Source of the DNA: Kalaharituber pfeilii
Taxonomy: Eukaryota; Ascomycota; Pezizomycetes; Pezizales; Pezizaceae
Reading direction: 5' to 3'
Assembly (NCBI GenBank): GCA_015179045.1
Contig: WHUZ01000010.1
Location: 186,001-250,000, forward strand
DNA: 64,000 nucleotides
Positions 846 through 61,384 of this stretch are shown here, piece after piece; position 1 is the stretch's first letter, and each line of letters opens with the position of its first letter. Under the pieces are notes generated by a model. The model saw only the letters and a program-made list of their open reading frames with translations. It was not told the DNA's origin and did no database searches. A program made the position numbers and the translations under genes.

Positions 846-2013
846 GGACTGGAGAGACTTTAGCTTGAGTTATGCTACAGACAAAAATGATGGGTTTGAG
901 TCAGTAGCTGGAAAGATTGCAAGCACTCTCGAGGTCAATGAGGAGGAGAGAGTGTCCTGGGGGCGAGATGTACACCTACCACAGACAGGCATTGAGGTCA
1001 TTGACCTCAAGCTGTGCAAGGAAGACGCCCCAGCCAAATGGGAAAAGGCCATCAATGAGGCTAAGGGTGACTCGGTGGCTATTTTTACAGACGGCAGCCG
1101 CAGTGAGGAAGGCGGTGTTGGTGGCGGATGGTGCTGGAGGCAGGTGGTAGCAGGTGAGTCAGAAGGGTCCCGGTGGGTAGGCACAAAGGCAACTGTGTGG
1201 GACTGTGAGGTCTCAGGAATGAGGGGTGCCCTTGAAGCAGTTGATGGCAGTGAAAAAGTGCTACTACTCGCAGACTCTCAGGCAGCTATCAGTGCAGTCC
1301 AGAAAGCAGGAAAAACTGGCAAGGCAAGAACCGCAGACCTAGGGCGGGTGATAGAGCTGATTGCGGAGAGGCGGCGGAGGCTAAGGAAGGCGGATGCAGT
1401 GAAGCTGGCATGGGTCAAGGCCCACGTGGAGATAGAAGGCAATGAGAAGGCGGATGAGTTGGCCAAAGAGGGGGCCAAGGGCATGAGGTATGATGGGCAG
1501 GCCACTGAGGGTGGGCTGCGTCAAGACTTAGTTCGAAAAAGAAAAGAGGAGAGGGAGCGTGCAGGCTTTGGGAAGGGCAAATTCGTAAAGTGGGGCAGGA
1601 GAGCACTCACAAATTACACTTGGCTGCGGACTAGAAAAGGCGGAGCTATGTGGAGGAGGATGGTCAGTGGCGAGGAGGTACAATGCACATGTGGTGAGGC
1701 ATGGAGTGCTGAGCATGTGGTGTTCAGATGCACAGAACTGGAGCGGCCCCAGAGGAAGAACAAAAATGGGGCACATGTCACCTGGCAGTCCTGGGAGGAC
1801 CTAGAGGAGAAAGGATGGAAGCAAGAAGGCGTGGAAGGTGACCCGGTCGAGTACTGGTTTGCCTGCCTCGATCTGGGGTAGCCGGGGACCGGGGGACGGA
1901 GGGCACTGGGTGCTCAAGGGTGTATGTAGATTCCGTAGTTAGTTGTCTCAAACCTGGCCCGGGTATATGGGTCCCTGCCATAGGCTGGTAGCCTGTATGC
2001 GGGGTTACGTGAA

Positions 2014-2042
<29 letters not shown>
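846..2042 (+). mobile_element. 5'-truncated LINE-B element (RNase H part)
   Basis: The open frame 865-1881 gives about 338 residues of the C-terminal part of a LINE ORF2. An RNase H domain fills roughly residues 65-210: T-D-G-S with the first Asp, an E in the C-E-V-S-G-M block, A-D-S-Q with the third acidic residue, and K-A-H-V-E-I-E-G-N-E-K-A-D with the His and final Asp. A zinc-knuckle-like C-T-C-G ... H-V-V-F-R-C follows near residues 275-290. The 3' UTR ends in the LINE-B hairpin tail (GCGGGGTTACGTGAAT) and a 29-bp poly(A) run. The start codon at 865 is only the first Met in a truncated copy. A close copy sits at 9543-10795 on the other strand. The body abuts duplication copy 1 at 2043. 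Confidence 0.85.
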
Positions 2043-4993: not shown

Positions 4994-4999
4994 TAGGAA

Positions 5000-6450: not shown

Positions 6451-6451
<1 letters not shown>

Positions 6452-6907: not shown

Positions 6908-6977
6908 ATTCTTTTTTTTTTTTTTTTTTTTTTTTTATATCATTGATCGCTTGCCGCCTTATAGGCTATGGCGATTT
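6908..6977 (-). mobile_element. LINE-A tail-only insertion (70 bp), shared by both duplication copies
   Basis: Poly(T) is followed by the minus-strand LINE-A hairpin (GCCGCCTTATAGGCTATGGC) and nothing else. The 10-bp duplication AAATAACATA flanks it (6898-6907 and 6978-6987). The same insertion at 37854-37926 shows that it predates the segmental duplication. Confidence 0.85.
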
Positions 6978-7287: not shown

Positions 7288-7372
7288 CCCGGAGGACTAA
7301 ACAGGCAGTCATGGAGCCGATCACCCCGTTATGGAGGTATCAGCTACCATGGTGACAATGTCTTGCTTCAGC

Positions 7373-9000: not shown

Positions 9001-9078
9001 TCAACCAATCAGTAACTGAAATTAGGCCTTTAATCATCAGGAACAGCCTACATCCGCGGAATTAACTACAACGAACTA

Positions 9079-9589: not shown

Positions 9590-10795
9590 CACGTAACCCC
9601 GCAAACAGGCTACCAGCCTATGGCAGGGACCCATATACCCCGGCCAGGTTTGGAACAAGTAACTACGGAATCTACATACACACCTTGAGCACCCAGTGCC
9701 CTCCGTCCCCGGCTACCCCAGATCGAGGCAGGCAAACCAGTACTCGACCGGGTCGCCCACCACGCCTGCTTGCTTCCACCCTTTCTCCTCTAGGTCCTCC
9801 CAGGACTGCCAGGTGACATGCGCCCCATCTTTGTCCTTCCTCTGGGGCCGCTCCAGTTCGGTGAATCTGAACACCACATGCTCAGCACTCCATGCCTCAC
9901 CACATGTGCATTGTACCTCCTCGCCGCTGACAATCCTCCCCCACATAGCTCCGCCTTTTCCAGTCCGCAGCCATGTGTAATTTGTGTGCTCTCCTGCCCC
10001 ACTTTACGAATTTGCCCTTCCCAAAGCCTGCACGCTCCCTCTCCTCTTTTCTTTTTCGAACTAAGTCTTGACGCAGCCTGCCCTCAGTGGCCTGCCCATG
10101 ATACCTCATGCACTTGGCCCCCTCTTTGGCCAACTCAACTGCGTTCTCATTGCCCTCTATCCCCACGTGGGCCTTGACCCATGCCAGCTTCACTGCATCC
10201 GCCTCCCTTAGCCTCCGCCACCTCTCTGCAATCAGCTCTATCACCCGCGCTAGGTCTGCGGCCCTTGCCTTGCCAGTTTTTCCTGCTTTCTGGACTGCAC
10301 TGATAGCTGCCTGAGAGTCTGCAAGTAGTAGCACTTTTGCACTGCCATCAACTGCTTCAAGGGCACCCCTCATTCTGAGACCTCGCCGTCCCACACAGTT
10401 GCTTCCTCGCCATAGCCTTACAGGCGGCATGCGAGTAATGATAAAAAAAACAAAAAAAACACAGTTGCTTTTGTGCCTACCCACCGGGACCCTTCTGACT
10501 CACCTGCTACCACCTGCCTCCAGCACCATCCGCCACCAACACCGGCTTCCTCACTGCGGCTGCCATCTGTGAAAATAGCCACCGAGTCACCCTTAGCCTC
10601 ATTGATGGCCTTTTCCCATTTGGCTGGGGCGTCTTCCTTGCACAGCTTGAGGTCAATGACCTCAATGTCTGCCTGCAGTAGGTGTACATCTCGTCCCCAG
10701 GACACTCTCTCCTCCTCATCGACCTCGAGAGTGCTGGCAATCCTTCCGGCTACTGACTCGAACCCATCATTTTTGTCTGTAGCATAACCCAGCGT
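9543..10795 (-). mobile_element. 5'-truncated LINE-B inserted in LINE-A
   Basis: A long poly(T) (9544-9584) precedes the LINE-B tail AATTCACGTAACCCCGC, then the complement of the same RNase H module as at 846-2042. RNase H motifs (T-D-G-S, A-D-S-Q, K-A-H-V-G-I-E-G-N) are recognisable but split by a 55-bp tail-only insertion and a frameshift near 9990. The 5' break is at the same element position as in the copy at 846, near the TTATGCTACAG sequence. Confidence 0.8.
10405..10459 (+). mobile_element. LINE-A tail-only insertion (55 bp)
   Basis: CCTCGCCATAGCC and the hairpin are followed by an A-rich tract containing one C. It sits in the RNase H frame of the LINE-B copy, flanked by the 11-bp duplication CACAGTTGCTT (10394-10404 and 10460-10470). 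Confidence 0.9.
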
Positions 10796-11040: not shown

Positions 11041-11112
11041 TTTCTTTTTTTATATATATCATAATCGCATGCCGCCCTAGGGGCTATGGCGTTGAAATTG
11101 AGAGCAGGAAGA
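11041..11112 (-). mobile_element. LINE-A tail-only insertion (72 bp)
   Basis: T-rich run, ATATATATCATAATCGCATG and the hairpin, with about 25 bases upstream of the hairpin. It is flanked by the 15-bp duplication AGATTCTAGCTTGTT (11026-11040 and 11113-11127) inside the LINE-A copy. Confidence 0.9.
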
Positions 11113-16371: not shown

Positions 16372-19227
16372 TCCAACAAATAGACAGAAGCACAATCACA
16401 TGGACACGGACAATCAGTGGACAAATGAGAACGGCGCTCCTCGACCCAGTGTTCGCAAAACCCGGGGAATGGAAGACCACAAGAACAACGTGGATAGCTG
16501 GCTCGGACCACGCAATGATCGCTGGAAAACTAAATACCAGGGAGAGGACGGCAGTCAAGACCATCAAAGTGACAGACTGGGACAAATGGGAAGCCTTTGT
16601 CGACAAATACGGAAACAAAAGGATAGCCGAGGGTGTCGACGGCTACCACCTACTATGCGAACTAAGCCAAAAGTTCACCAAAGAGGCACGAATCACCGGA
16701 CGCACGAAACGATGGTTTGACAAAGAGGTAAAAGAGGCAAGACGGATGACCAGAGCGATCCTACAGAGCAACGCCAGCAGCGCCGACAAGACGAGGGCCA
16801 GGAGACTGCTGAGAGACATAATAAGAGACAAACAGAAGCAATACTGGGAAGACTTCCTCGAGGAAGGTAGGATCACCTCACCCTGGGACATTTTCAGGCT
16901 AGCTAGAGACCCCTTCCGACAGAGAGACTTGATGGGGATACCCGGTACAGATGAGGAAATAGCCGAAGCCCTGATCGAACGCAACTTCATATCACAGGGA
17001 CGGGACAGCCCGGAGATCACAACAAGACCGACAGGACTCACAATACACAGGGAACAGGCCAGGCGGGAAATCGACAGGGCTCCCACCAAGACCAAGTCAA
17101 GGTCCGCTCCTGGACCGGACGGGATACAATACGGACTACTGAACCTCTTGAAAGGCACAACACTATCGGCAGCTGTCAGGGAGAAAATAGTGGACTACAT
17201 AAATGGCGACTACAACTTCGCAAGAGGCTCTGAGGTTGTCATGATACTGAAGAAAGGGAGACCCAGAGACCAAATAGCCAGCTGGAGACCTATAACACTC
17301 CTCAACACGGTAGCCAAACTGGGACAAAAAGTGATCGCTAGCGCACTCTAAAGAAAAGACGACTTGTTCAGGGACTCCCAGCTCGGAGGCAGACACCACC
17401 GAGGTGCCGAGGACCTGCAAAGACAGGTACTCAAAGAGGTAGACAAAAGACTGGCAAGGAATGAATGGGTCGCACTGGTAGGAGACGACATCAAGTCAGC
17501 CTTCAACTTCCTACAACGAGACAAAGTAGTAGCCCAGATAAGAAGGACCGATAACAACCTCGCATGTTGTCTGGAGGCGTTTCTCATGCCGAACCATTTC
17601 AATATGGTCTGGGATGGAAACGGAGAACTACGGGTACGATGACGGATGGCACACCGCAGGGATCGCCACTCTCACCAGTCCTGTTCCTAATAGGAGTGGC
17701 CTTGGTAGTTAAGGAAACAGACTAGCGGAACTTTACTAGGACATATGTAGACGACTTTTATAGCGTTATATTGCACAAGTCACTCACAAAGTTACGGCGC
17801 GCGATCAAGAACCACCGGGATAACCCCACCACGGTAGCAGCAGCACACGGTTTCCAGGTCGACCCGGAAAAGATTGAAACACTCATCGTCGGCGTGAAAG
17901 GTCCGGAATACAGAATGACTGGGCTGACAATAGACTGGGAAATGAAGTTCAACAAACACCATAAAAAGCGCCTGCACCTTGGGAAAGCCGCCTGGCAAGT
18001 AGCATCTTTTTTTTTTTTTTTTTTTTTTTTTTCATGTGACCCCGCATGTAGCTGTTCGCCATGGCAGGGCAGGCAAGTAGCATCAAGGTTAACCCTTCAC
18101 AGCCCAAACAAGAAACGGCAACTATACACAAACACTGCCCGCACCATAGCGACATGGGGCTGTTGGGCATGGCAGGAGTACGCAAAAGGCGCCCCGGCAT
18201 CCAACAAAATCAGAGAACTGGAGGCATGGCAATACACGGTTGCGCAGAGAATCACCGGCTCCCCATGGGGCACGAGAAGGGACATAGTCGAGGGACTCGC
18301 CAACTTGGAATCGGTTCAGACTTTCACGGAGGCGGAGCGCAGGAGAGTCGAGGCACGCACCCTAAGATTCAACAACGAACCCTTGCGAAAGGTGGAACCT
18401 GAAACCACATACCTCCGAGGGTCACTGCACTATAGACCACCTCTCCCGCTGTCCACCCTACCAGCCCTCCCAGGGGATGCAGACTCGGCGGACTTCGAGA
18501 AAGCCATAGCGGACGCGGAAGACGAGGGATGGACCGCACACTACACCGATGGAAGCAGAATAAATGACATCACTGGAGCGGGAGCCTTTAGTGGAGGGCG
18601 CCCACCGATCTCTATATACCTAGGGGTGCAAACGACAGTTAATGACGCAGAATTAATAGCAATGGGCGAAGCGCTCGCAGAACAAGACGGGGAAATTCTG
18701 ATCCTCACCGACTCCAAGATCGCAATCTCCAAGCTACAAAAGATCGCCCAGGGTGAACCCACTCACGACGGCGCAGCACAATTAGCAAGGGACGCATGGG
18801 AAGCCAGAAACAATAGGGGCGACTGTATCTTGGGGGCCAAGTCCCTGAGAAAATGGCAGTTCGGTATAGGAAAAGCGGACAGCCCGGAGTGCCGGTGGTG
18901 CGGCGAGGAGGAGGAAACCACCGCACACATCCTGGACAGATGCAGAACATGGAAACGAAGATGGCCTGGAGGAAGGGTGGACCTGGTAAGGCCACCCAAG
19001 AGTAAAGACAAGGACATCCTGATGGAACTGCTGGACTGGACGGAATGATAGGCGGGTAAGGTTGGAAGTTCATGGCAGGGACGACGACGGACGAGAATTT
19101 CTCTACCTTTCATGTTTTTCTTTCCTCTCACTCCTACAGGGGATGGTCTAAGTACGAGGGGTCTTTATGTAACTAAACATTGCCATAGCCCTTAGGGCGG
19201 CACGCGATCAATGATATTAAAAAAAAA
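16372..19227 (+). mobile_element. LINE-A, 5'-truncated, with RT and RNase H (degenerate)
   Basis: The copy begins inside the endonuclease domain (T-I-T-W-T-R; W-I-A-G-S-D-H-A-M-I), then RT (S-A-P-G-P-D-G-I-Q-Y; W-R-P-I-T-L-L-N; V-G-D-D-I-K-S-A-F-N; Y-V-D-D-F) and RNase H (Y-T-D-G-S-R; L-T-D-S-K). Defects include a stop in place of Gln at 17349-17351, frameshifts near 17640-17770, a 65-bp tail-only insertion at 18007, and a deletion near 18834 that removes the last RNase H motif. It ends with the hairpin and As near 19227. The 9-bp repeat AATTCCTGA (16363-16371 and 19228-19236) flanks it. Confidence 0.85.
18007..18071 (-). mobile_element. LINE-B tail-only insertion (65 bp)
   Basis: Poly(T), TTCATGTGACCCCGCATGTA and the hairpin, starting (minus strand) at CTGCCCTGCCATGG. 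The 13-bp duplication GGCAAGTAGCATC (17994-18006 and 18072-18084) interrupts the RT/RNase H linker of the surrounding LINE-A. Confidence 0.92.
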
Positions 19228-19357: not shown

Positions 19358-19413
19358 TTTTTTGTTTTTCTTTAATATCTTTACTCGCACACCGCCCTAT
19401 GGGTTATGGCGAG
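19358..19413 (-). mobile_element. LINE-A tail-only insertion (56 bp)
   Basis: T-rich run, TTTAATATCTTTACTCGCAC and the hairpin, starting (minus strand) at CTCGCCATAACCC. Flanked by ACTCACAGAC (19348-19357 and 19414-19423). Confidence 0.88.
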
Positions 19414-19739: not shown

Positions 19740-20263
19740 CTGCTCCAACTCGGTCGTCTCGTGCAAACCGGTCGGTGATGTGACTGGCACTCGTGCCTCT
19801 CCCTAGTCGCGCTCCTTGTCTGTCCCTTGGATGTCTCCTTGTCCTTCTTCCTACCCCTTTCGGCAGGCATTGTGTTGGGAGCTGATGTGGTGTGAGGCTA
19901 ATGGCTATGGCTAGTCATGTGAGTGATTGTGGCGGGTGGGTGCAGTCGAGTGTCCGTGTGGCGGTGTCACTGGGTGGCGGTAAGGCGGTGGTGAGTGGCG
20001 ATGGGGGTGTGGTATGTGGGGTGGGTGTAGTCGTTGGTTAGATGGCGGTGTGCCGTGATCCTGCTCGTGTGCTGTAGAGTATGTGGGAGGGCGTCAGGGT
20101 CTGGACCGTCTGCTGTCGATTGTGAGCTGGTGGTCGTCCCCCGAGTTCGAACGCTGCCCTCGAGGCCGTCGGGCCGAGGGGGTTCTCCTGGTGTTGTCCG
20201 CTTCCTTGTGGCACGTCTGGTTGTCGAGAAAAGGCCTCGGTCACGTGATGTGAGTCGTGGCCC
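19740..20263 (-). mobile_element. LINE-A 5' region fragment
   Basis: G/T-rich plus-strand sequence without a lasting frame, ending in a block at 20094-20262 that recurs at 43150-43318 and, more diverged, at 46550-46680. It includes the CACGTG box. It is best read as the 5' UTR of a truncated minus-strand LINE-A. Confidence 0.5.
20236..20262 (-). promoter_or_regulatory. LINE-A 5' inverted-repeat box
   Basis: CCTCGGTCACGTGATG followed by AGTCGTGGCCC; the second arm is cut by the adjacent LINE-B tail. Confidence 0.4.
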
Positions 20264-20302
20264 TTTTTTTTTTTTTTTTTTAATTTCACGTGACCCCGCT
20301 TG
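20264..20302 (-). mobile_element. Hyper-truncated LINE-B tail (21 nt plus poly(T))
   Basis: Eighteen Ts are followed only by AATTTCACGTGACCCCGCTTG, the last 21 nt of LINE-B without the left arm of its hairpin. It sits against the poly(T) of the next LINE-A, so no target duplication can be defined. Confidence 0.6.
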
Positions 20303-20439
20303 TTTTTTTTTTTTTTTTTTTTTTTTTCTTTCATTAATCGCATGCCGCCCTAAGGGCTATGGCGATGTTTAGATACAGGTTGAAGAGATTAATAGAGAAA
20401 TGTGAAAGGAAAATGGAACTGTCAAATCCCAAACCCCGC

Positions 20440-23400
20440 TTATGCCTTCTCCGCCCAGTCTAGTAGCTCCGCCAGGTTAAAGTCTTTGTCCGGCTGTAGA
20501 AGTCCCTTCGCTCCACCTTGAATCCTTCTCCGCCACGGTGGGCAGTCGTTGGAGATGTGCGTCAGGTTTTCCAACGCTCCTCCGCACCATCTGCATTCCG
20601 GTGAGTCGGCTTTGTCGATGTGGAACCTCCATTCCTTGAGGCCCTTGTTGCCCAGGATTCCCGCTAGGGTGGCTAGTCTTTCTCGGTTGTCGAGTCTTTG
20701 GAGTGGCCGGTATGTTAGACCTAGGCGATTGCGTTCTTCTGCTCTTAGGCTTTTGGCTTCTTGTCTTAACCCCGGTTCCGTGACCGTATCGTCTTCGTAC
20801 TGGATGGCGGTGCTTATCTTTGCTGCCTTGTCCGCCTTGGTGTTTCCTTGTATTCCTATATGGCTTTTGATCCACATGACTGCCGTGTCTAGATCCCCTC
20901 TTTGGGTCCTTTCTTCCCATGCGCGCCTGACTGCCATGGATGGGCCGTCCACGTTCGGGTCTCCGTTGGCTATCTTTTGCATTCTGGAGATGGCTGTGCG
21001 GGAGTCGGTTAGGATCATAAGCTCCCCTTCCGTATCCAGGGCCTTGGCGATGGCTAGCATCTCACCGTCGTTGACCGTGCAGACTCTGCCGAGATAGATG
21101 AATTCCTCGTTCCCTCGGAAGTGTGTGCCCGCTCCGGTGACGTTGTTTATTCGGCTCCCATCCGTGTAAACCCCCTGCCATCCTTCCTCTTCCTCTGCCT
21201 GGATGATCTCTTCCCACCTCTCCCGGCTCGTGTCGCTGGGTTGTATCGGAAAGGTGTGTATGGGGATGGGGGTTCGGTGTGAGAGATCCCCTCTCAGGTA
21301 GATGGTGTCCGGGGATGGGTCCAGTAACGGTTCGTGGGGGAATCTCAATGTGCGTGCCTCCACCCTGTCTCGTTCTCCTTGTGCGAAGGTCTGGATCGAC
21401 TCTAGGTTAGTCAGGCCCTCTACTATGGCCCTCCGGGTTCCCCATGGAGCGCCTATGATGTCCCTGGCGATTGCGTATTGCCACTTCTCCAGTTGCCTGA
21501 ACTTCTTCTCTTCCGGGGCGCCTTTGGCGAAGGACTGCCAAGCCCAGCACCCGTAAGTGGCGATGTTTCTGGCTATGCTGGTGTATAGTTGGTGTCTTTG
21601 GCTCGGGGGAACTCTGGAGAGTTTCTTTGCTACCCCCCATGCCGCCTTGCCTAGGTTTATCCTTTTCCGGAAGTGTTCGTTGAACTTCAGCTCCCAGTCG
21701 ACTGTCAAGCCCACCAGTCTGTAGCTCGGTCCTTGGGTGCCTATGATTAGGGTCTCGGCCTTCCGTGGATCCAGCTCGAAGCCCTTCTTGCGTGCTGCCT
21801 GTGTCAGGGTCCGGCGGTGTGTTTCTATATCTTTCCTGAGGTGTTTCATGGAGCGGTTGGATATCACGCTGTGAAAGTCGTCGACGTAAGAGCGTGTGAA
21901 CTGGCTATTCTCCGCTGCCTCGGCGACGGGAGCGACGGCTACCAGGAATAATACCGGGGAAAGGGGGGAGCCCTGGGGGCCCCGTCCGTCATCGTCCCGG
22001 TGCCTCGTATCTTCCTGTCCCATGCGATTGAGAATGGTGTCGGTTGAAGGAACCCTTGGACGAAGCTGGCTATGTTCGGGTTCGCTCGTTCCAGTCTCGA
22101 AACCACTCTGTCCCGTCTGATGTGGTTGAAAGCGGCCTTTATGTCGTCCCCTACCAGGGCTGTCCACTCCCCTTTTTTTAGGCGTTTGTCTGCCTCTTTC
22201 AGGGTCTGTCTTTGGAGATCTTCGCTGCCTCTGAAGGGTCGGCTGCCCAGCTGTGAGTCCCTGAACAGGCTGTCCATTCTCTGAATTGCGTTGGCCATGA
22301 CTTTCTGTCCTAGTTTGGCCGCCGTGTGGAGAGTGATGGGTCGCCAGCTCCCCGGCTGATCTCGGGGTTTCCCTTTTTTGAGTATCATGACCATGTTAAA
22401 CCCTTTGGCGAACCCGTGGTTCCCGTTCAGGTAATCGACGATCTCTTCTCTGAGGGCTTTCCACAGTGTGGTCTTCCGCAGCAGTTTTAGAACGCCATAT
22501 TGAATGCCGTCCAGTCCTGGAGCTGAGTGTGATTTGGCCGAGGCTAGAGCCTTGTCTAACTCCATCCTCGCGAGGTCCTTGTCTATCGTGGTGCCTTCTG
22601 GTCTTCGGGGGGCCTCTTCCTCCGGGGGATCCGTGATCAGGTTGTGTCTGATTAGCGCCTCGGCGATCTGTGGGTCCGAGCCCTCGATGCCCATGAGGGG
22701 GCGGCTTCGAAAGGGGTCTCGTGCTATGCGGAAAATGTCCCACGGGGATTCTATTCGATCTCCCTCGAGAAATCTCTCCCAGTATGTCTTCTTCTTTTCT
22801 CGGATAATGTTGCGGAGGAGTCTGCGTGCCCGGGTGCGCTCAGCGGTGGTGTTCCCGGGGTTTCGTAGGATGTATTTCGTCATCTTCCGAGCCTCCTTAA
22901 CCTCCTTGTCGAACCACCTCTTGGATCTGTCCATGATGTGTGCGTCCTTGGTGAATTCCTGACCAAGTCTGGTGATCGTCTCGTATGCGCTGCCGAGGTC
23001 GATGTCGTCTTCTCCATGTTCTGTGACGTACTGTTCCCATCTCTCCCAGTCGGTTACCTTGATCTTCCGGATTGGGCCTCGGTCCCGAGTGATGAGGTGT
23101 CCGATGATCATGGCGTGGTCGGATCCGGCGATCCACGAGATCTCCTGGGTTTTCCATTCCCGGTCCCTTGCGAATACTAGGTCCAGGAGTGCTGATCTCT
23201 GAGTGCCTTGGATGTGTCTGGTCCAGGTGACCGTCCCTTTTTTTATCTGTTGGCTTAGCCCGTGCGCTTCCATGTGGCCCTGGATACTAGCTCCTCGGGT
23301 GTCTTGTCTGTCGGACCAATCCCGGTGGTGGCTATTGAAGTCCCCTATTACCAGGTCTGCCGAGCCTAAGTTGTCGAGTTCGAGGTCCACGTTGGTGTCT

Positions 23401-23695
23401 TTGTTCCAGTAGACCCCGGTGATTTTCCTGTCTTTGTATGTTATCGAAACTAGTTTGTCGTTCCCTTCCACCCGTATGTCTGCGGCTATGTCTTTCCTGG
23501 CGTATGCTGCCAGTCCCCCGTTTTCGAGGGCGTGTGAATGGTGGTGAATGCCGGGTGGAATGTGGTCCCTCCTCCTGGTGCTGTCCAACCTTCTCCTATA
23601 AAAACGAAATCTGCCCTTCTGAAAGCCCCTTCCTGTAGCGCGATGTCCGTCCCCACGATCCCCCGTCCTACGTTCTGGTATAGGACTCTAATCAT
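20440..23695 (-). pseudogene. LINE-A ORF2: endonuclease, reverse transcriptase, RNase H
   Basis: The ATG at 23695 overlaps the end of ORF1 by 8 nt (ATGATTAG). The APE endonuclease starts I-R-V-L-Y-Q-N-V-G-R-G and continues through D-L-V-I-G-D-F-N-S-H-H and W-I-A-G-S-D-H-A-M-I. RT follows with S-A-P-G-L-D-G-I-Q-Y, W-R-P-I-T-L, V-G-D-D-I-K-A-A-F-N, the Q-G-S-P-L-S-P block and the catalytic Y-V-D-D-F near 21890. RNase H has Y-T-D-G-S-R, V-N-D-G-E-M, T-D-S-R-T-A and K-S-H-I-G-I-Q-G-N-T-K-A-D. The end carries C-R-W-C-G ... H-I-S-N-D-C. Frame breaks near 23500-23590 and 21940-22170 split it into three frames. It would normally nick the target and copy LINE-A RNA. Confidence 0.85.
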
Positions 23696-26661
23696 TGCGG
23701 AGGATCTTCGGCTCTGGTGCCCTGCGGGGACGGTTGGGGAGCTGGCAGTCGGGTAGGTGTCCTCCTTTCTGACGGCATCCGTGACATGTCTGTCTGAACG
23801 GGCGTCCGTTCAGGTTCACCGGTTCTTCGATCTCCTTTCTCCTCGGGGAGCCTCGGACCCATTCCGGCAAAGATTTCTGTTTGGGTACCCATTCGATAAC
23901 CTGGCCCACCACGAAGTGGTTGCAGTACCCTTCGGAGTCGGTATAGCGGTACCTCCTGGCTTTGTCTGACTTTTCTTTTCCCAGGTCGGCCCTAAGGAGG
24001 CAGGTTATTTTTTCCCCTCGGAACTGTAGTCCCTTTCTAAGTATTTGCACCACGTTGTCCGATACGAAGATCGAGAAGGCTGGCTTGCCTTCCCGTGCCG
24101 GGATGATGTGGTGGGGTACCCTTCGGACGTTTCGGTAGGAGAGTTCTCCCGGGTTCTCAATGCGTAGGTCCCTGCCGACTTTGCCCTGGTTCTCGTGCAT
24201 CCCGATGTCGAAGGTGACCAGTTCGACCAAGCGGCTGTCCCAGTCCGTTCTCGCTCCGGGGTTGACCCTCTTGACCGCCTTCTCCAAGTGAGATAGGTCT
24301 CTGGGGCCTTGTCTGAACTCTGTGTCGACCATCAGGAGAATCCTTTCCTCCGGGAACGATTGGTCAATGATGACCCTTCTTACTAGGTAGGGGGCGTCCT
24401 TTCCGAGGTGTGCGTTGATCCTGTCCTTGGTTTTCCCCATCTCCGAATTGCCTTCCCGGGGATGAGTCCAACCGTGCTGTTTCCAGTTGTCCTCGTTGTG
24501 GATCCTGGCCTGCCACAGTCTTTCCTTGGGGATGAGATCGGACTCTCGGAGGTTATGGGTCGCCTGGGGTTCGGTCGCTTGGGGTTTCTTCCCTCCTTGG
24601 GAGCCGTGTTCTGGTTGGGCTTCTACTGCCTTCTTCTTCTCTGGGCCTTCGGCGCTTGACCCTTCTCTGGGGCTGTGTGAGGGGCCCTCGTCTGTCTCGT
24701 GTTCCATTCTCTCTTTCTGGGTGGCTGCCGCCTGTGCGTAGGTTCTGTTCGAGCGTCTTCGGGGGCCCGTTGGGGGTTTCTTTTCCTTCTTTTCCCGTTT
24801 TTTTTCCGGGGGGGCGGTGGACTGTGTGCTGGCCTGTTCCTTTGTCTCCTTGTCCGGTGTGACCGTTTCCTTCTGGGTGGCTGGAGCTTGTGCTTGTGGT
24901 CTTTTCGGTAGGGTGACCTTGTGGGAGGGGTGGGGCGTGGTCGAGTGAGACCCTTCTGAGTCTTTCTTCATCTTTTCCATCTTGGCTTGGAATGCGTGCT
25001 GGCTCCCGCTCATCCCTTCGTCCTGAAGCGTGTAGTCCATCGGGTCTTTGGGTGGTGTCTCTGTGTCGGCTTTGGGCGTGACTGCCGCTGTGCCTGACTT
25101 TTCCATGGCGGGGAGGGCGGGGGAGGCCTGCCGGTGGGCGGGTTGCTTCTCGGGAGGGCTGGGGCTGTGCCTGCTTTTCCTCCCCTCTCCATCTCGGCTG
25201 TCTGTGCGTACTTGCTACTGCTTGTGCCTTGTTTCTCGTAGTCCCAGTCCATGCTGGGGGATGGGGGCCTGGGTGGTGTCTTCGGGTCTTGGGCTTGGTG
25301 TGCGTGGTGGCTGTCGCATGAGCTGCTGTTGTCGTAAACGATTCCCTTCATCTTGTCTGGTTTTCCCCCCGACGAGGGAGAGGGGCCTGTTGGGGATTCC
25401 TCCTCCTGTTCCGGGGGGGTCCCTTGTGCCGCTTCCCTTCTTTCGCTGGGTAGGAGGGCAGGATCTTCTTCGTGTTGTGGACGTCGTTGGGTGAGACTGG
25501 GATAAAAAGGAACCTGTGTTCCAGTCTGGTGAGGATGTTGATGACGTGGTCCATGGATTCGTTGACCATGTTTTCCCAGACGGTCTGGCGTTTCTCTCTC
25601 CTGTATCGTTCTTCAACGACCGCGTTTCGAACTATCCCGGAGATTTCCTGTCTCGTGACTGTGTGCGCCACTTGGGTTCCTTTGTCAAGGTCTTCATGTG
25701 TCGACTTCAATGATTTCTCTAGTGCCTCGATTCTCCCGATTATCATGTTTTCGGATGTGACGATCCTCTCCCCAAGGGTCTCAAGTCTCTCGAGTATCTT
25801 GTTGTCGGGTGGCCCGGAGGGCTGACTGTCTGCGATCTCGTCCTGTCTGTTGTACCATTCCCTTCCCCGGACTCGGACCTCTTCTGGGACTGGGGTGTAC
25901 CCGTGTTCCGAGGATGCTGTCGGAGCTGGGATAACTGATCCTCCTGCGCTCTCGCTCGGGGTGTCCCCGTAGGGGGTTGTGTCTGGGATGACTGAGTGAT
26001 CCGCGGGTACTGTCATAGGGACTGGGACGACTGTGCTTTCGGAGCTCTCGCTCGAGGTGTCCCCGTAGGGTGGTGTGCCTGGGATGACTAAGTCGTGGAG
26101 AGGGAGAAGGATATGTTGGCCTCCTACCGTGATTGTGTCCTCAATTTGGTCCTCTGGGGGTCTGGGGTCCATAGCTTCGCTCTCCTCGATGAATCGAATG
26201 ATCTCCTGTGTGGAGACTCTCCCATGTTGGATGTCTTCAATGCTGATGACCCGGATTGATGTGTTCAGGTCTCTGTCCGCTGCTAGTCTTCCTCTTGCGG
26301 CGGCTATCTTTGTCGCCTTTTCCAGCCTCTGACCGGCTTGTGGGTCCGTCTCCGCTGCGTGTTTGAATATGTCCTGGTATCTGTGGAGGGTCCACTGGCT
26401 GTCTTCCTGTATGAAGGTCAGGTCTGCGTTAGATTTCCAGTCTCGAATGTAGTGAAAGTCTAGTCCATTGACTTTGGTTTTCCCGGTGCGTTTCCGGGTT
26501 TCTGGTCTTGCCGTGGATTGGGTGCGGTTGCGGAGGCGAGTGCTTGTGCGGGTGGGGTGGCGGCCCCTGTCGGTGGCTGCTGCCTTTGTCATGTCGTGAC
26601 CTAACTGTGTGCGTGGCTGGGTGGTTGTGTGGTCGCCGTTGCCTATTGGTCGTGGTCTCAA
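23688..26661 (-). pseudogene. LINE-A ORF1 (gag-like, CCHC knuckle)
   Basis: The N-terminal part (26661-25348) is in one frame; the remainder shifts frames between 25616 and 25010 before continuing as 25106-23688. A charged coiled-coil-like stretch lies near 25800-25600 (L-E-R-L-E-T-L, I-G-R-I-E-A-L-E-K-S-L). The C-terminus has one zinc knuckle, C-H-G-C-R-Q-K-G-G-H-L-P-D-C, then a basic tail. This type of protein binds the LINE RNA. The middle region is rich in Pro, Lys and Thr. At least two frameshifts prevent a full product from this copy. Confidence 0.75.
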
Positions 26662-27066
26662 TTGTGATATGTGATCTGAGGAATGGGATGTGGTGTGTCA
26701 GAATGTGAGGGCTGTTCTCTATTCGTTCGGGGGTGGGTCTGTTCTTGTTAGTCCGATCCCTTCCAGGTAGTCTGGATCGTGCGAGTCTCTTTGGGCCACG
26801 TCGGGTGTGTTATTCGAGGTGTGGGTTGTCGTCGAGGGGGTTTCGGGGGCCCCCGCCGTCGAGGGTTTCCGCGACTGCGCTGAAGTTGGAAGGTAGGTGT
26901 GTGCTGTGTAAGTCCGGCTCTTTTGAGTGTTCTGACGAATATTCGAGGGGAAAGTGTCTATTCCGTAGATTCTCGCGTGTTTCCTGGGGTTCCCGTGCCC
27001 GTCGGGCCGGGGGGCGTCGTTCGCCGTTGTCTGCTAGTCGATGCGATGTCTGGCGGTGGAGATACG

Positions 27067-27100
27067 GCCTCGGTCACGTGACGTTAGACGTGGCCCGAGG
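27067..27100 (-). promoter_or_regulatory. LINE-A 5' inverted-repeat box (CACGTG)
   Basis: GCCTCGGTCACGTGACG and CGTGGCCCGAGG form a nearly perfect inverted repeat at the presumed 5' end of the near full-length LINE-A. Recurrence at every preserved LINE-A head suggests a promoter or RNA 5' structure. Confidence 0.5.
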
Positions 27101-27116
27101 AGGTTGTAGAGGTGTG

Positions 27117-27159
27117 AATTTGACCCCGCTTGTAGCTGTTCGCCATGGCAGGGCAGAGT
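27117..27159 (-). mobile_element. LINE-B tail insertion without poly(A), 28-bp flanking repeat
   Basis: AATTTGACCCCGCTTGTAGC through GGCAGGGCAGAGT, the LINE-B hairpin only, with no T-run. Direct repeats of 28 bp (27089-27116 and 27160-27187, two mismatches) flank it. Both features differ from the other tail-only insertions, which have T-runs and 9-15 bp repeats. Confidence 0.7.
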
Positions 27160-27229: not shown

Positions 27230-27565
27230 CGTAGTTGTATACTTGGAGGAAGAAATAGGCAAGGACACGGTGCGACTCGGGGGGAAATGGCTCAAGGCGA
27301 GTCAGTATGAGTCTGAAAGAGGACGGAGATGAAAGATTCAGGCTGCTGACCGCTCTCCCCGCAACACCTCCTCAAGACCGCGGGCCTGCCCTGCCCTGGC
27401 GAACAGCTACAAGCGGGGTCACGTGAAATAAAAAAAAAAAAAAAAAAAAAAGACCGCGGGCCTCATGTACTTAAGACAGTTTTTGTTTTGATTTTGTCTT
27501 AAACCCTCGCCATAGCCCATAGGGCGGCATGCGAGTAATGAAATAAAATAAAAAAAAAAAAAAAA
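27230..27565 (+). mobile_element. ORF1-only element, 3' part
   Basis: A short plus-strand frame ends Y-E-S-E-R-G-R-R and stop at about 27332, then 3' UTR and the LINE-A tail with poly(A). It has the same C-terminal block (V-V-V-Y-L-E ... V-R-L-G-G-K-W-L) as the other ORF1-only copies. A 62-bp LINE-B tail interrupts the UTR. The target appears to be a GAGCTC site still uninterrupted near 43374. Confidence 0.7.
27388..27449 (+). mobile_element. LINE-B tail-only insertion (62 bp)
   Basis: Starts GCCCTGCCCTGGCG at the hairpin foot and ends with about 22 As. Flanked by the 14-bp duplication AAGACCGCGGGCCT (27374-27387 and 27450-27463). Confidence 0.92.
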
Positions 27566-32482: not shown

Positions 32483-32542
32483 TAGTTGGATCGCCATAGC
32501 CCATAGGGCGGCACGCGATTAATGATATTAAAAAAAAAAAAA
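32483..32542 (+). mobile_element. LINE-A tail-only insertion (60 bp)
   Basis: TAGTTGGATCGCCATAGCCC and the rest of the hairpin plus As, flanked by AAGTATCCGGA (32472-32482 and 32543-32553), inside the left arm of the Mutator-like element. The copy at 62849 lacks it, giving an empty site near 63103. Confidence 0.92.
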
Positions 32543-32739
32543 AAGTATCCGGACTGCTGGCATAATGAATTTGGGACTTGCAACACCAACAGTCCTATAC
32601 CTACATATCAGGACAAGGAAAATAGATATAAGTCCTCTACTAGGAATATAAAAATGGCACTGCAGGTAACCTTGATAAGCACAGGTTCAGGCATTATAAT
32701 CAAAACTTACTATTCTGATAGGTCCTAAGATTTCGAGAC

Positions 32740-36272: not shown

Positions 36273-37853
36273 GGCTTTCGGCAAGAGTTTTAGAAGGAGA
36301 TTAAGGCCTAAAATAATGAATTGAGGAAGAAAGCTCGAGGAGAGTTGATTTGGAACAACGCAGGATGCTGAGTAGATGGATGTGGACTTGTTCGGGGCAG
36401 TTGGGATTACTTTTATATTCTCTGAGGCCTCTTCTACACCTCGCTCGCTGTTAGTTATACAATCTCAGCCTGTTGCGGGCTGCTACACTGACGAATTCTT
36501 CCCTTGCTTCGAAACGCCAGTTTCCAAAACGTAACTGATTGCACACATATTCGTAAGTTCACATGCTCTATGGTCCTTGCTTTTTTCTTTTTGCTGCTTC
36601 AGCTGCTCTTTCCAAATGACTTGGACTCAGCTGAGTACTGCAGCTTTTTTGCGCTTGTTGCAGTTCATGATACTCAGCTGCACATTACGGTGTCCAATGC
36701 AAACTGAAAGTCAAACTTTACAAATCATTTCGCAATCGCTTCAGCTACGTTCATATTTGACGTGAGTTAGATTGCAGATCCCGCTCAATCTTGTCTCGGC
36801 AGCCTAATTATTCCCAGAAATGTTTTTGTGTAAGGAGGGATATACGTCAACTACTTTCCCATACTTAGATGGGATGAATGTGGTATTCGGATCCTGTAGA
36901 AATATATTGGAACGATTGGCTTATAATTCACCTCATTTAATATTACCTAAAGCATTGAAATTCGGACATGAAGGATTGGGCTTAGGGGCGTATTCCTATC
37001 AAATCCTCCCTAAATAGAGGCATAGCAAATTCGGTTCATGTGGGGATGAGGAATATTCAGGTCCGCTCGCAAACGGACCTCTCCATCCATGAGCAGGATG
37101 AGTTCGTGAGAGAACCAGTCCAGTTGCGAATAAATCTTTTTCTGATCACAGGCAAAAGGTTTTCTACTATAGTGGATTTTTTACATAGTGTTATGCCTTT
37201 GATTCTCTTCTGTCATCTACACATCGATTCTCAAAGAAAAACACATATTATAAGCTTGCATGCAGGTCATAGGCTCATGGTGCCAATAGCCTAAGTTAAT
37301 ACTATCACTTTCTGTTTCACCACGCATATCGATGTTTCCCGAACATATCCGCATTGTGTAGTATCACATAGTCTTGTGTCCCGGCCCAAAAAAAATAGGA
37401 AATATCGCCTAAATAGTAAATATCACTTGAGGTAGAACCTCTTCGGGCAGGCACATTCTGCCTGCGGCTCTCGGACCGCATTCAGGCCATAAACTTTGGC
37501 GCCATAACAGCAAGACAAAGTCTACGTAGTTCGGTTGTTGGAATGTCGTACAGGACTGTCTCAATGATTATCTGCTATTGCATAGCTGCTGCAGTAACAC
37601 ACTCGTCAGGACCATACTAGTACAATTACCTTTTACAGTTGGGATATTTCGGGAATGCCTGCAAGGTTGCTGAATTATGGCAAATAGAGTCTCTGGACTG
37701 TATGCATGAAGAATTTTCATCATGCCCTCAAGATCATTAGAGACTTCACACCCACAGTCACTGATACTAAGCCACCACCGCCGTCGACAAATGCCCTGCG
37801 GTATAGGTACTGTGTAACGGGAAAACAACACTGCTTGCGACCAAAATAACATA

Positions 37854-37926
37854 TTTTTTTTTTATTTTTTTATTTTTTTTTTTTTATATCATTGATCGCT
37901 TGCCGCCTTATAGGCTATGGCGATTT
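37854..37926 (-). mobile_element. LINE-A tail-only insertion, copy 2 of the one at 6908
   Basis: Same insertion and same AAATAACATA flanks (37844-37853 and 37927-37936). The T-run carries a few As. Confidence 0.85.
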
Positions 37927-38195
37927 AAATAACATAATTGACGAATACCACCGCAATCATGGAAAACGTGCTACGGTAACGATACCCCTTCACTTGCTCG
38001 GTGTATGTAGTATTCACGGGTTAACTTACATTCATTCTGCATGCCTCGCCTCTCCCGTCTCATGCATCCGTGAAACCTGCAGCACGTACAGCACCCGCGA
38101 CATTGAGTGGTCTGCACGATGCCAGACAGTCCACACAGAAAATCCCAAGACATCCCACCTAATGTGCCTACCCGGAGAAATTCTGAACTGGAGGA

Positions 38196-38266
38196 CTTCC
38201 TTTTTTTTTTTTTCCTTTTCTTATATCACAACACCCCGCTTATCGCTACTCACTGTGGCAGGACGC
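38196..38266 (-). mobile_element. LINE-B tail-only insertion (71 bp)
   Basis: T-rich run, TTATATCACAACACCCCGC, hairpin and GTGGCAGGACGC. Flanked by ACTGGAGGA (38187-38195 and 38267-38275). Copy 1 retains only a relic. Confidence 0.8.
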
Positions 38267-38465
38267 ACTGGAGGAGGACTAAACAGGCAGTCATGGAGCC
38301 GATCACCCCGTTATGGAGGTAGTCACATGCATCTGCGTATGGTCTGCGTTAGTAATTGGCTCAGAGCACGTGTGACTGTTGAACGCAGAGTGCCTGAGCC
38401 AAGACATGGTTGTATTGTACTGGAGGTGAAATTCAGCTACCATGATGACAATGTCTTGCTTCAGC

Positions 38466-38660
38466 TTATAACTTGACGACGCTTAGGAAGCTCAAGCGCT
38501 GAGCAACCAAGCCATCGCTGCCAAGTGTTAAGAACTTTAGCGCATTGGAAGTGAAAAACTTTACACCTGCTGGCTTCATGTGGTTATAAGACCTGTATCT
38601 ATAGATCAAACCAATTGTGCCCACAGTTATCAAACTCGCTGTGTCCTTCACAGTCGCCAT
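38466..38660 (-). CDS. Small conserved open frame, unknown (copy 2)
   Basis: 64 residues, product identical to 7373-7567. No family recognised. Confidence 0.25.
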   Translation of the reverse strand: MATVKDTASLITVGTIGLIYRYRSYNHMKPAGVKFFTSNALKFLTLGSDGLVAQRLSFLSVVKL

Positions 38661-39315
38661 GAAGTAGTTATGTGCTAAATTATGTATATGCTATAGGTTT
38701 CTTTTTATTTTTTCACCTCCAACTGAGCGAAGAGGCGGAAAAAAAAGAAACAAAACGCTAAAGTTGTGATTCGTGAGCGGGCCGCTTCATGCACGGGGGA
38801 ACCGTTCCAGGACTGAACTCGCGAGTGGACCAGAACACATCGGCTTTGACTCCTTCCGACCTACAGTGAAACCAGTCACATTGGATAACGCCAGGACCAG
38901 CGTGTTTTCCAATAAGGCAGGCGATCCGCTTAGACAGGTTGGAGCGGAGGTCAATTCTTGTGCTATATACATGCATGCGCAATCAGAACTATAGCAGATA
39001 CGTACATGTATAACTTACAGGAGCAAGTTAAGAGGTAAAACATGCCTATTTCAGAGGGCATTTTAAGCCTAACAAGGTCAAGTGCTTTTCCAAGCGTTGA
39101 AGTGAAAGTGCGGCTTGTTCGTCCTCTGAAACTGGAGTCTGGGACTGGGTTGAACGAGGTGGTTGATTCCAGACAATGCATCGCCTGCCTCAAGGACTGG
39201 CCCATGCGCCTCGGAGCCATATTGGTCTTGACCAGCTGAGTCTTCAGCTATAAGCTCGGCCGATAAGTGTGAATTAAGCGATCCAACATCACTTCTTGCA
39301 TGTCCTAAATTATCT

Positions 39316-39441
39316 CTTGAGCTGGGTCCACAAATTCGGTGGCTTGAATATTGTTACTCTTCAGCGGGGTTCAGAAATTCGGTGGCATGAATATTGATAC
39401 TCTCCAGCTGGATCCACAAATTCGGTGGCCTGAATCTTGAT
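39316..39441. repeat. Three-unit minisatellite
   Basis: Three units of about 48 bp around AATTCGGTGGC, against two units in copy 1. Confidence 0.7.
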
Positions 39442-39483
39442 AGTACCGGAGACCTCAGTTCTGAGACTACCGTAAAGCCTCGC

Positions 39484-40033
39484 CACCCCCGTCGCCACCT
39501 AAGACAAGAGGAAAGCTTCCGACACAGGAAGAAGCATTCCGGCGACACCGCGCCCGAAAGGGCCGCGACACCACCACCAAGTCCACACCAACCACTCCCG
39601 ACGCCATCACCAAGGGAGAAGCAGGCGTCGTAATACACGGCATCCCATTAAGGAAGGATTTGGGGAAGGTTAAGAAGTGGTTGGGAGCAGCGAACCGGGA
39701 GCTAGGGAAGGTTATGGGGATTCGCTGGCTCAGGAAGAAGAGCTTGTTGGAGGAGGGAAAACAGACAAGCTCGGTGGTACTTTACTTGGAGAAGGAGGTG
39801 GCGATCGAGAAGGTGAGACTGAGCGGACGATGGCACAAGTGTGCCCGGTATGAGTCGGAGAGGGGACGGAAGTAGGAGATTATACTGGGCGCCACCCGCA
39901 ACACGGAGGGATCCGCGGGCAATACATGTAGTTAGGTAGTTAGGATTGGTGTTTTTATATTTTCTTTAACTAAGACCCTCGCCATAGCCCGTTGGGCGGC
40001 ACGCGAGTATTGATATTAAAAAAAAAAAAAAAA
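39484..40033 (+). mobile_element. ORF1-only element, 550 bp, frame intact
   Basis: The plus-strand frame is open from the insertion point to the stop at 39875 (130 codons). It has K-T-R-G-K-L, V-V-I-H-G-I-P-L-R-K-D-L-G-K, G-I-R-W-L-R-K-K-S-L-L-E-E-G, S-S-V-V-L-Y-L-E and ends Y-E-S-E-R-G-R-K. The order of blocks suggests an RRM-like or gag-like fold as in LINE ORF1 proteins, without the zinc knuckle. The LINE-A 3' UTR and hairpin (loop GTT) follow at once. The duplication GTAAAGCCTCGC (39472-39483 and 40034-40045) is exact, and copy 1 near 8313 shows the empty site. Confidence 0.9.
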
Positions 40034-40466
40034 GTAAAGCCTCGCGAATAAGACCTACTCTTTAGTAAGACTATGCTCGTGAATAAGTCCCTGGTTCGCA
40101 GCTACAGAAGAACCCCTCATAGTGGATATTTTCGAGGATGGACCTTCTAGCCAATAACGCCTCATATCCAGTGAGAGAGGTTTATTGAGCGAGAGTCTAT
40201 CTTCATACCAATAGTGTCAAAACATGAATGGAGATGACTCAGCAATATAGAGTCTTAATAGCTGACTTAAGATTCAGTCCGGCTTGAGATTCAGCGCTCG
40301 GTGTTCCCAACTGAGCCCGCCATGATGTCGGTCTGGGCCGGTCCAGGCCGTCCAGGCCGTCCAGGCCGGTCAGGCCATTCAGGCCAGGCCACGCCATTCA
40401 TGCCAGTGCAGAACAAAGAGTGAAATAGCATGGCTATGTACATGAGACAATAATAGGTGGTGAAAT

Positions 40467-40524
40467 GCCCTGCCATGGCGAACAGCTACAAGCGGGGTCA
40501 CGTGAAATAAAAAAAAAAAAAAAA
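40467..40524 (+). mobile_element. LINE-B tail-only insertion (58 bp) with empty site in copy 1
   Basis: GCCCTGCCATGGCG to TCACGTGAAAT and As. Flanked by the 12-bp duplication AGGTGGTGAAAT (40455-40466 and 40525-40536). Copy 1 near 8724-8735 carries a single AGGTGGTGAAAT, so the event postdates the segmental duplication. Confidence 0.95.
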
Positions 40525-40878
40525 AGGTGGTGAAATAAACATATGCGGTATCTGAAAGAATAATGGGCAGGGAAAGAAATACACGTGAACAGAATGAGAG
40601 GTGGTGAAAAAACACACGTTTCACGAGATATGAGACTTCAATCTGAAAGAACCATAGGTGGTGAAATGAATAGACGGGTATGTGACCGCGTGGAGATTTG
40701 TCGAGGTTTAAAAAATTAAAAAGTTATACCTAAATGGTCTGGACCTGTCTCGACCGGTCTGGGCCGCCTGGAGCAGTCTGGACTAGCCTGGCCTGAATAG
40801 CATCAACCAATCAGTAACTGAAATTAGGCCTTTGATCATCAAGAACAGCCTACATCCGCGGAATAAAATACAACCAAC

Positions 40879-54412: not shown

Positions 54413-54475
54413 TTTTTTTTGTTTTTGTTTTTTTTGTCACATGACCCCCGCATGCGGCTCTTCGCCATGGCAGGA
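54413..54475 (-). mobile_element. LINE-B tail-only insertion (63 bp)
   Basis: T-rich run, GTCACATGACCCCCGCATGC and hairpin; start (minus strand) TCCTGCCATGG. Flanked by the 14-bp duplication CCATATGGAGTTTC (54399-54412 and 54476-54489). Confidence 0.92.
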
Positions 54476-54559
54476 CCATATGGAGTTTCAGACGTCAACA
54501 AACATACAAAGATGGAATTCGGAAGATACCGAAAGGTGGCATTTCCTTGGCAACTGCTG

Positions 54560-55030
54560 AGGTCGCACAACGCACGCAACTCGCCAAACTCACGCAACTC
54601 ATAGAACTCAACTTCGACCTCGCACAAGTCACAGAACTCGCAGAACTCGCAGACCTCGCAGACCTCACAGAACTTGCGCCACTCCCTAAGCTCGTTGACC
54701 TCGCAGACCTCGCAGAACTCGCAGACCTCGCAGAACTCGCAGACCTCGCAGAACTCGCAGACCTCGCAGAACTTGCAGACCTCACAGAACTTGCAGACCT
54801 CGCAGAACTTGCAGACCTCACAGAACTTGCACAACTTGCAGAACTCTTTTTTTTTTATTTTTATATCAGTAATCGCGTACCGCCCTTGGGCTACTTGCAG
54901 AACTTACGCAATCTCACAGAACTCGCACAACTTGCAGAACTCGCAGACCTCGTACAACTCGCACAACTCGCAATCTCGCGTACTCGCACGCTTCGCACAA
55001 GTCGCACAACCCGTACTCTCACACTCTCAC
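54560..55030. repeat. 9/18-bp minisatellite (CTCGCAGAA / CTCGCAGAC)
   Basis: Tandem units alternate CTCGCAGAA and CTCGCAGAC with drift toward CTTGCAGAA and CTCACAGAA. Because the unit is a multiple of three, both strands stay open: plus encodes Leu-Ala-Glu-Leu-Ala-Asp repeats (54547-54860), minus encodes Cys-Glu-Val-Cys-type repeats (54834 leftward). Whether either is translated cannot be told. A 47-bp LINE-A tail interrupts the array. Confidence 0.85.
54846..54892 (-). mobile_element. LINE-A tail-only insertion (47 bp) in the minisatellite
   Basis: T-rich run, ATATCAGTAATCGCGTACCG and CCCTTGGGCT; the 5' end lies inside the left hairpin arm. Flanked by ACTTGCAGAACT (54834-54845 and 54893-54904), though the repeat array makes the exact edges less certain. 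Confidence 0.8.
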
Positions 55031-57188: not shown

Positions 57189-57253
57189 TTCATATTATTT
57201 TACAGTAATTTATTTCATGTGACCCCGCTTGCAGCTGTTCGCCATGGCAGGAC
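57189..57253 (-). mobile_element. LINE-B tail-only insertion (65 bp)
   Basis: A degraded T-rich run, TTTCATGTGACCCCGCTTGC and hairpin, start GTCCTGCCATGG on the minus strand. Flanked by AGCCAGGGGAGCCT and AGCCAGGAGAGCCT (57175-57188 and 57254-57267, one mismatch). Confidence 0.85.
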
Positions 57254-57837: not shown

Positions 57838-57869
<32 letters not shown>

Positions 57870-57902
57870 ATAACCCGCTTGTAGCACTTGGCCATGGCAG
57901 GG
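57838..57902 (-). mobile_element. LINE-B tail-only insertion (65 bp)
   Basis: Poly(T), TTAAATCACATAACCCGCTT and hairpin, start AACCCTGCCATGG on the minus strand. Flanked by the 15-bp duplication TTTTGCCTACGCTTC (57823-57837 and 57903-57917). Confidence 0.92.
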
Positions 57903-60834: not shown

Positions 60835-61351
60835 CTTCCTCTGGGGCCGCTCCAGTTCTGTGCATCTGAACACCACATGCTCAGCACTCCATGCCTCACC
60901 ACATGTGCATTGTACCTCCTCGCCACTGACCATCCTCCTCCACATAGCTCCGCCTTTTCCAGTCCGCAGCCAAGTGTAATTTGTGAGTGCTCTCCTGCCC
61001 ACTTTATGAATTTGCCCTTCTCAAACCCTGCACGCTCCCTCTCCTCTTTTCTTTTTCGAACTAACTCTTGACGCAGCCCACCCTCAGTGGCCTGCCCATC
61101 ATACCTCAGGCACATGTCACCTGGCAGTCCTGGGAGGACCTAGAGGAGAAAGGATGGAAGCAAGAAGGCGTGGAAGGCGACCCGGTCGAGTACTGGTTTG
61201 CCTGCCTCGATCTGGGGTAGCCGGGGACTGGGGGACGGAGGGCACTGGGTGTTCAAGGGTGTATGTAGATTCCATAGTTAGTTGTCTCAAACCTGGCCCG
61301 GGTATATGGGTCCCTGCCATAGGCTGGTAGCCTGGATGCGGGGTTACGTGA

Positions 61352-61380
<29 letters not shown>
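60835..61380 (+). mobile_element. Twin-primed LINE-B (5' part inverted)
   Basis: The 3' part (61111-61380, plus) matches 1769-2042 of the first LINE-B copy. The left part (60835-61110) matches 1484-1757 but on the minus strand. The whole is flanked by AAGTGCTCAGTGAT (60821-60834 and 61381-61394). About 10 bp of the element are missing at the inversion junction. This is the classic product of twin priming. Confidence 0.92.

Positions 61381-61384
<4 letters not shown>

Follow-up and report, generated by a model that had tools for sequence, protein, structure and literature searches.

Tail-only retroposons with near-fixed 5' ends in Kalaharituber pfeilii and their possible origin from hairpin-protected LINE RNA stubs

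The window analysed here (C2:186001-250000) is a stretch of 64,000 nucleotides from Kalaharituber pfeilii, and the genome searched with it comprises 78,031,657 bases in 360 contigs. An H-type lectin ORF of 242 aa lies at 14663-15391 on the forward strand; over its full length it is 100% identical to a segment of a Kalaharituber pfeilii protein of 306 aa, and it has four relatives of 58-66% identity in the species. On the reverse strand, a 918-aa ORF at 49182-51938 gave matches to FUSC/ALMT-type transporters. Two regions, 2766-9016 and 35193-40818, form a segmental duplication with 94-99% identity, and a dense array of 9-bp tandem repeats at 54553-54980 bears a LINE-A tail insert. Long copies and short tails of the LINE-A and LINE-B elements are distributed over the window (Table 1). 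Nine of the 13 protein matches to a LINE ORF come from Kalaharituber pfeilii itself, at 40-66% identity.

The insert at 40467 is flanked by the target duplication AGGTGGTGAAAT at 40455-40466 and 40525-40536, and its empty paralog lies at 8725-8734. Empty paralogs within the window were also found for the inserts at 10405 and 32483. The first-pass annotation had listed 13 tail-only inserts, and each of the 13 has a tail together with an A-tract and repeated flanking sequence, the repeat being weak at 38196 (8 bp), at 57189 (7 exact bp) and at 54846, where it lies inside the tandem array and is not diagnostic. One more copy beyond the 13 is the split alpha insert (20260-20302 and 27120-27154); what had looked like a chimera at 20302 is in fact a LINE-A inserted into this alpha copy. 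By eye, the sequence surrounding the split insert resembles the LINE's own 5' start. The insert at 18007 has one additional T ahead of its first G. The inserts at 6908 and 37858 represent a single insertion within the segmental duplication, which shares this tail insert between its two arms and also contains the pair 38196/7246, with a partial deletion in one copy. The 40467 insert is younger than this duplication. A genome search with reversed tail patterns gave 0 matches, which, together with the target duplications, the occurrence on both strands and the empty paralogs, rules out an artefact.

Table 1. Tails and inserts of LINE-A and LINE-B in the window.
Feature	Position	Strand	Remarks
LINE-B alpha tail-only insert, focus of this study	40467..40524	+	42-nt hairpin body and A-tract
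LINE-B alpha tail-only insert within an ORF with RNase H match	18007..18071	-	duplication GATGCTACTTGCC
LINE-B alpha tail-only insert	27388..27451	+	duplication GACCGCGGGCCT
Split LINE-B alpha tail-only insert, 5' part	27120..27154	-	
Split LINE-B alpha tail-only insert, 3' part	20260..20302	-	LINE-A between the parts, duplication CAAGCGGGGTCA
Long LINE-A nested in the split alpha insert	20303..27120	-	endonuclease-like, reverse transcriptase and RNase H matches
Diverged LINE-B tail-only insert	38195..38266	-	paralog at 7246 missing part of the insert
LINE-B tail-only insert, variant GAAGAGCCGCATG	54413..54475	-	same variant in 79-nt copy L027
LINE-B tail-only insert	57189..57253	-	
LINE-B gamma tail-only insert	57838..57902	-	
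LINE-A tail-only insert	6909..6977	-	duplicated with its flanks at about 37858-37926
LINE-A tail-only insert	10405..10458	+	empty paralog 1189-1192 (minus strand)
LINE-A tail insert	11041..11112	-	19 extra bases ahead of hairpin
LINE-A tail-only insert	19358..19413	-	duplication adjoins hairpin
LINE-A tail-only insert	32483..32543	+	7 extra bases; empty paralog 63101-63105
LINE-A tail insert, start inside hairpin	54846..54893	-	repeated flank in tandem array
Tail of long LINE-B1 copy of the parent type, beginning with T	1973..2040	+	RNase H match in ORF 865-1881
Tail of long LINE-B1 copy	61311..61381	+	477 bases upstream to duplication

Tails in the window were located by nhmmer. The window and loci L001-L098 together (361,067 bases) yielded 222 distinct tails, 183 of them testable for a duplication. 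A tail was taken as duplication-bounded at a duplication score of at least 10, and permuted flanks served as the control. Lineage shares within L001-L038 are biased, as these loci were picked via the alpha tail itself, L009-L038 without use of upstream sequence. The fixed LINE-B 5' end near the hairpin foot, proposed from the window, holds among the duplication-bounded tails outside it. A duplication was found for 54 of the 74 testable Ba tails, and in 36 of these 54 the end lies no more than 4 bases from the body start. The corresponding values are 10 of 16 and 5 of 10 for Bg, 1 of 9 and 0 of 1 for B1 (another B1 tail, at score 9, ends within 4 bases), and 35 of 84 and 13 of 35 for LINE-A, two of the latter being copies of one insertion. 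The permuted-flank control gave 1 match in total and none at the body start. Among 30 loci picked by the 3' half alone, 13 have their end no more than 2 bases from the start, 1 has it at -38, 8 have it further out, one of these being doubtful, and the remaining 8 gave an ambiguous or unresolved end. The 5' ends of LINE-A in the window are looser, with +19 bases at 11041, +7 at 32483, a start inside the hairpin at 54846 and a variation of 0-3 bases in the others. The tail-only copies have a median duplication of 13 bp (58 copies) and a median A-run of 20 in LINE-B and 21 in LINE-A.

Genome pattern searches, which detect tails of any length, found the alpha hairpin at 3117 places with up to 3 mismatches, the LINE-B 3' pattern at 3176 and the LINE-A 3' pattern at 3793. 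The parental mark, defined as GGG plus a purine just upstream of the tail, is absent from 982 of 1333 and from 319 of 893 LINE-B tails. Ordinary 5' truncation at random would leave variable ends along the element, and the long LINE-A copies are indeed spread broadly, from 50 to 849. However, a 5-base window contains 13 of 35 LINE-A ends, two of which stem from a single insertion, and likewise 6 of 17 ends of the TTA lineage of LINE-B, with p values of 6e-21 and 3e-10, respectively, against a uniform 900-base null, and the parental GGG is missing from the genome tails counted above. Chance truncation is refuted by these end counts unless the tails were misassigned, and we consider it extremely improbable. 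The tail-only copies instead show one narrow start position; they are short non-autonomous retroposons with target duplication and A-tail, features that they share with SINEs. The tail-only inserts are a real, abundant and structure-defined class.

A second fixed size of about 79 nt was also observed. Seven copies with duplications end at -37 to -39, all seven begin at AAGCC, and exact 79-nt heads occur 164 times genome-wide. The window had suggested a gap in copy lengths below 110 bp; since the 79-nt class exists, this gap is filled in part, and with five further LINE-A copies having only 50-106 nt upstream it is not real genome-wide.

In single-sequence folds (z -0.7 to -2.95), copies begin at the base pair predicted to close a 7-bp stem, which is G.U in alpha and A-U in gamma. 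Similarly, the first base of the 79-nt form belongs to the pair that closes a predicted 7-bp hairpin, AAGCCUG/CGGGCUU. The foot pair of LINE-A covaries (CG 42, AU 26, GC 1 and unpaired 3 in 72 sequences), and 97.1% of the cells in its terminal stem-loop are paired. The LINE-B stem is 95.6% paired, with no compensatory changes and with shuffles equally good. By eye, GCCATRGC is common to LINE-A and LINE-B tails. A conserved terminal 3' stem-loop, as in the tails of stringent-type LINEs, is present. The known SINE partners of stringent-type LINEs bear a head ahead of the LINE tail, whereas the Kalaharituber element is the tail hairpin alone. As in the ZfL2 and UnaL2 pairs, to the extent covered by the source text available, the 3' stem-loop is conserved and common to long and short elements (PMC4176376).

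Tandem units of 21 bases corresponding to the 5' half of the alpha hairpin were observed at L004 near 696 (minus strand), G000:C298:71402-71495 and C298:23220-23250, and perhaps result from template jumping. In addition, L047, L049 and L071 (near 2284) are composites of a partial hairpin unit, a second full tail and a third partial tail. Template-jump dimers as the main route were rejected, being rare, with 5 matches at 2 places.

The junctions of 45 LINE-B tail-only copies comprise 23 direct joins, 14 with extra bases and 8 overlapping the duplication. Where the boundary is clear, all 32 Ba copies begin with G, all 4 Bg copies with A and the single B1 copy with T, and the 79-nt, gamma and B1 relatives have these same first bases. 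L040 (Ba, TTA lineage) is an exception: it starts with G, and the long copy closest to it, L059, has A. L046 also starts with G against an A in the nearest long copy, and its duplication overlaps. In the 14 copies with extras, the base beside the start is T in 11 and C in 3 and never the parental G, the chance of finding no G being about 0.02. Microhomology was counted under one definition for tail-only and long copies. It occurs in 10 of 45 LINE-B tail-only copies, or 10 of 31 when copies with extras are left aside, a value not different from 25% (p 0.41), and in 5 of the 7 usable long copies (p 0.016 against 10/45, p 0.09 against 10/31). A long copy was usable when its parent had at least 94% identity, which held for 7 of 34; among the 27 left out, one had a wrongly assigned duplication. 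The above-chance 5' microhomology that marks 5'-truncated LINEs was not found in the LINE-B tail-only copies.

In the consulted portion of a study of human L1, microhomology is at chance level in full-length inserts and occurs in nearly 80% of the truncated ones (PMC2912911). Full-length inserts of L1 and Nimb-2_DR in DT40 cells are described, in the source text available, as mostly direct joins. As far as the texts available go, the Kalaharituber tails resemble 5'-truncated human L1 copies in their target duplications, A-tract and intact 3' end, but they differ in a near-fixed, structure-defined 5' end and in near-chance microhomology like that of full-length inserts (PMC2912911, PMC4245944).

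In LINE-A tail-only junctions, the foot is preceded by 0-3 bases. Where such bases exist (9 rows), they match common upstream bases of long copies (AAC, ACC, AAT) in 6 rows, and two of the other rows represent one insertion. Parent-like bases of this kind would be expected from abortive priming, in which the enzyme holds the template through the hairpin and releases it after the last base pairs, the cDNA of a long RNA ending at or just past the foot. Such release would make a separate RNA unnecessary and would account for both the foot position and the recurrence across lineages. However, it should sometimes copy the next parental base, and in LINE-B the parental G stands beside the start in 0 of 45 copies while 14 have other bases there. 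In addition, microhomology is near chance in these copies compared with the long ones (10/45 against 5/7, small numbers), and the tail-only share is strongly lineage-dependent. A plain structural stop would be expected at the 3' strand of the hairpin and not at its 5' foot, because an enzyme moving 3' to 5' would meet the 3' strand first. Abortive priming is a serious rival that we nevertheless regard as rather doubtful. For LINE-B, the junctions fit run-off from the end of an RNA better than release in mid-template. For LINE-A, variable stub ends and enzyme release fit equally; the sharp template-end signature is a LINE-B result, as the LINE-A bases before the foot are mostly parent-like.

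The short form was seen in alpha, gamma, LINE-A and B1 tails (one copy in B1, at score 9), and each of these tail types also has relatives that are long or of 79 nt. In a nearest-relative test, the tail-only copies of LINE-A fall among the long ones (0.25 against 0.31, p 0.66; 13 against 26 copies), and three have a long copy sharing an identical 36-mer. One SINE source for everything is therefore unsupported in LINE-A, where the tail-only copies do not cluster apart. The nearest-neighbour test for LINE-B leans to clustering of the tail-only copies (p 0.055). In the first 100 gamma places, haplotypes CCAAG/CCACG occur 30 times without and 29 times with the parental GGG, and haplotype TTGGCGCTGC/T occurs 15 times with it and 3 times in 18 without. 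The ACAA lineage lacks it in 29 of 33 cases and has it in 4 (first 100 alpha/beta places). These counts indicate that short forms arise in several lineages, at unequal rates. Among alpha/TCA tails with a duplication, 35 are tail-only, 7 are of 79 nt and 2 are doubtful assignments as 'long'; in the sample this lineage has no clear LINE-length relative, only 79-nt ones.

The alpha/TCA counts and the LINE-B clustering, together with the rarity of LINE-like TT before the 79-nt heads (16 against 164 heads, with slightly different patterns), would be consistent with an independent micro-SINE, a gene or many copies of which produce their own 41-nt (and 79-nt) RNA for mobilisation by LINE proteins. 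This is at odds with the recurrence of the short form in LINE-A, gamma and B1 tails that have long relatives, and variants of the tail-only alpha copies are also found in 79-nt copies. Furthermore, the tails yielded neither a Pol III box nor an RNA-gene head. No Pol III box in the alpha, gamma, LINE-A or 79-nt bodies beats shuffles at 5% (closest 31/500). SINE boxes A and B are described, in the part of the source available, as 11 nt each and 30-40 bp apart (PMC9599045), a spacing impossible in a 41-nt body. Rfam gave no match at gathering score within the window and two sub-threshold matches in 6 of 7 loci with 79-nt copies, none of them at the tails; no tRNA, 7SL or 5S head was found in the window or in six loci with 79-nt copies. 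In comparison with SINEs as characterised in that part of the source, the element is likewise short, non-autonomous and A-tailed with a LINE-like tail, but it measures about 41 nt, occurs in several lineages and has no recognisable A/B boxes or RNA-gene head (PMC9599045). A micro-SINE with its own transcript is therefore unlikely.

We propose, with a probability of roughly 0.45, that the tail-only copies are target-primed insertions from short polyadenylated 3' stubs of LINE-A, LINE-B or 79-nt RNAs, which start at or near the hairpin foot. The near-fixed start, the target duplications, the empty sites and the presence in several tail lineages are established, as are, for LINE-B, the lineage-specific first base, the absence of the parental next base and the near-chance microhomology. 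The reverse transcriptase of the element would bind the terminal hairpin, and 5'-to-3' decay or cleavage of the longer RNA would halt at the bound hairpin, leaving a stub with poly(A). The enzyme would then prime at the A-tract, copy to the physical 5' end of the stub and often add one or more bases before the end is joined. Run-off at the end of a short RNA would account for where LINE-B copies start, for their extra bases and for microhomology close to chance. The 79-nt class may arise in the same way at the next hairpin upstream, or may be a separate small element. The first-pass annotation had left a choice between an enzyme stop at the hairpin and a short RNA, processed or independently transcribed; the LINE-B junctions lean to the short RNA, an independently transcribed SINE is not favoured, and the LINE-A junctions do not decide.

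Several observations argue against the stub reading. LINE-A copies do include the parental next base, and one uniform process would not predict tail-only shares that are unequal among lineages. The alpha/TCA sample lacks a clear LINE-length relative, LINE-B tail-only copies lean to clustering, and LINE-B pairing is conserved without compensatory changes. L040 and L046 start with G though the nearest long copy has A, and only 7 of 34 long rows are usable for microhomology.

More specifically, and still tentatively, we suggest that the mobilised unit of the class may be a nuclease-protected stub: 5'-to-3' decay would be kept off the final ~41 nt by the docking hairpin, and the stub left in this way would be inserted repeatedly with no head or promoter. 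Flavivirus sfRNA is a nuclease-resistant viral 3' RNA, a decay product whose fixed 5' end is set by structure; it has a complex resistant fold and no retrotransposition, whereas the Kalaharituber RNA would present a simple hairpin, perhaps protein-bound. An enzyme shield is suggested by zebrafish LINEs, the protein of which binds and needs the 3' stem-loop, according to the available part of the report (PMC4176376). For R2, whose insertions are truncated when the template RNA is unstable, the authors suggest in the available text that insertion may be limited by degradation of the template starting at its 5' end, and that 5'-3' exonucleases would be blocked by a stable structure at that end (PMC11331408); there the 5' module was designed, here a natural 3' hairpin would be the barrier, and the parallel is an analogy of ours. 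In human cells without XRN1, L1 reporter RNA is stabilised, yet retrotransposition drops, as given in the portion available (PMC11014359), which links decay and retrotransposition, though not as the stub model needs.

Tail-only retroposons were not described among the matches listed in a search, with limited wording, of the available open-access literature on small or truncated LINE/SINE products and truffle genomes. Within the non-autonomous retroposons mobilised by LINEs, we place the class as a variant; it would count as a new kind if the stub mechanism proved right. The class would set a natural lower bound on the cargo of a LINE enzyme, roughly a 30-nt hairpin plus poly(A), and it offers many natural junctions to separate template end from enzyme release, an open question in 5' truncation. 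If the stub model is true, the inserts are fossils of intermediates in RNA decay, and no gene is needed for 'SINEs' lacking a promoter to arise. If the protected-stub reading is true, the class would be a minimal element that retains the recognition signal only.
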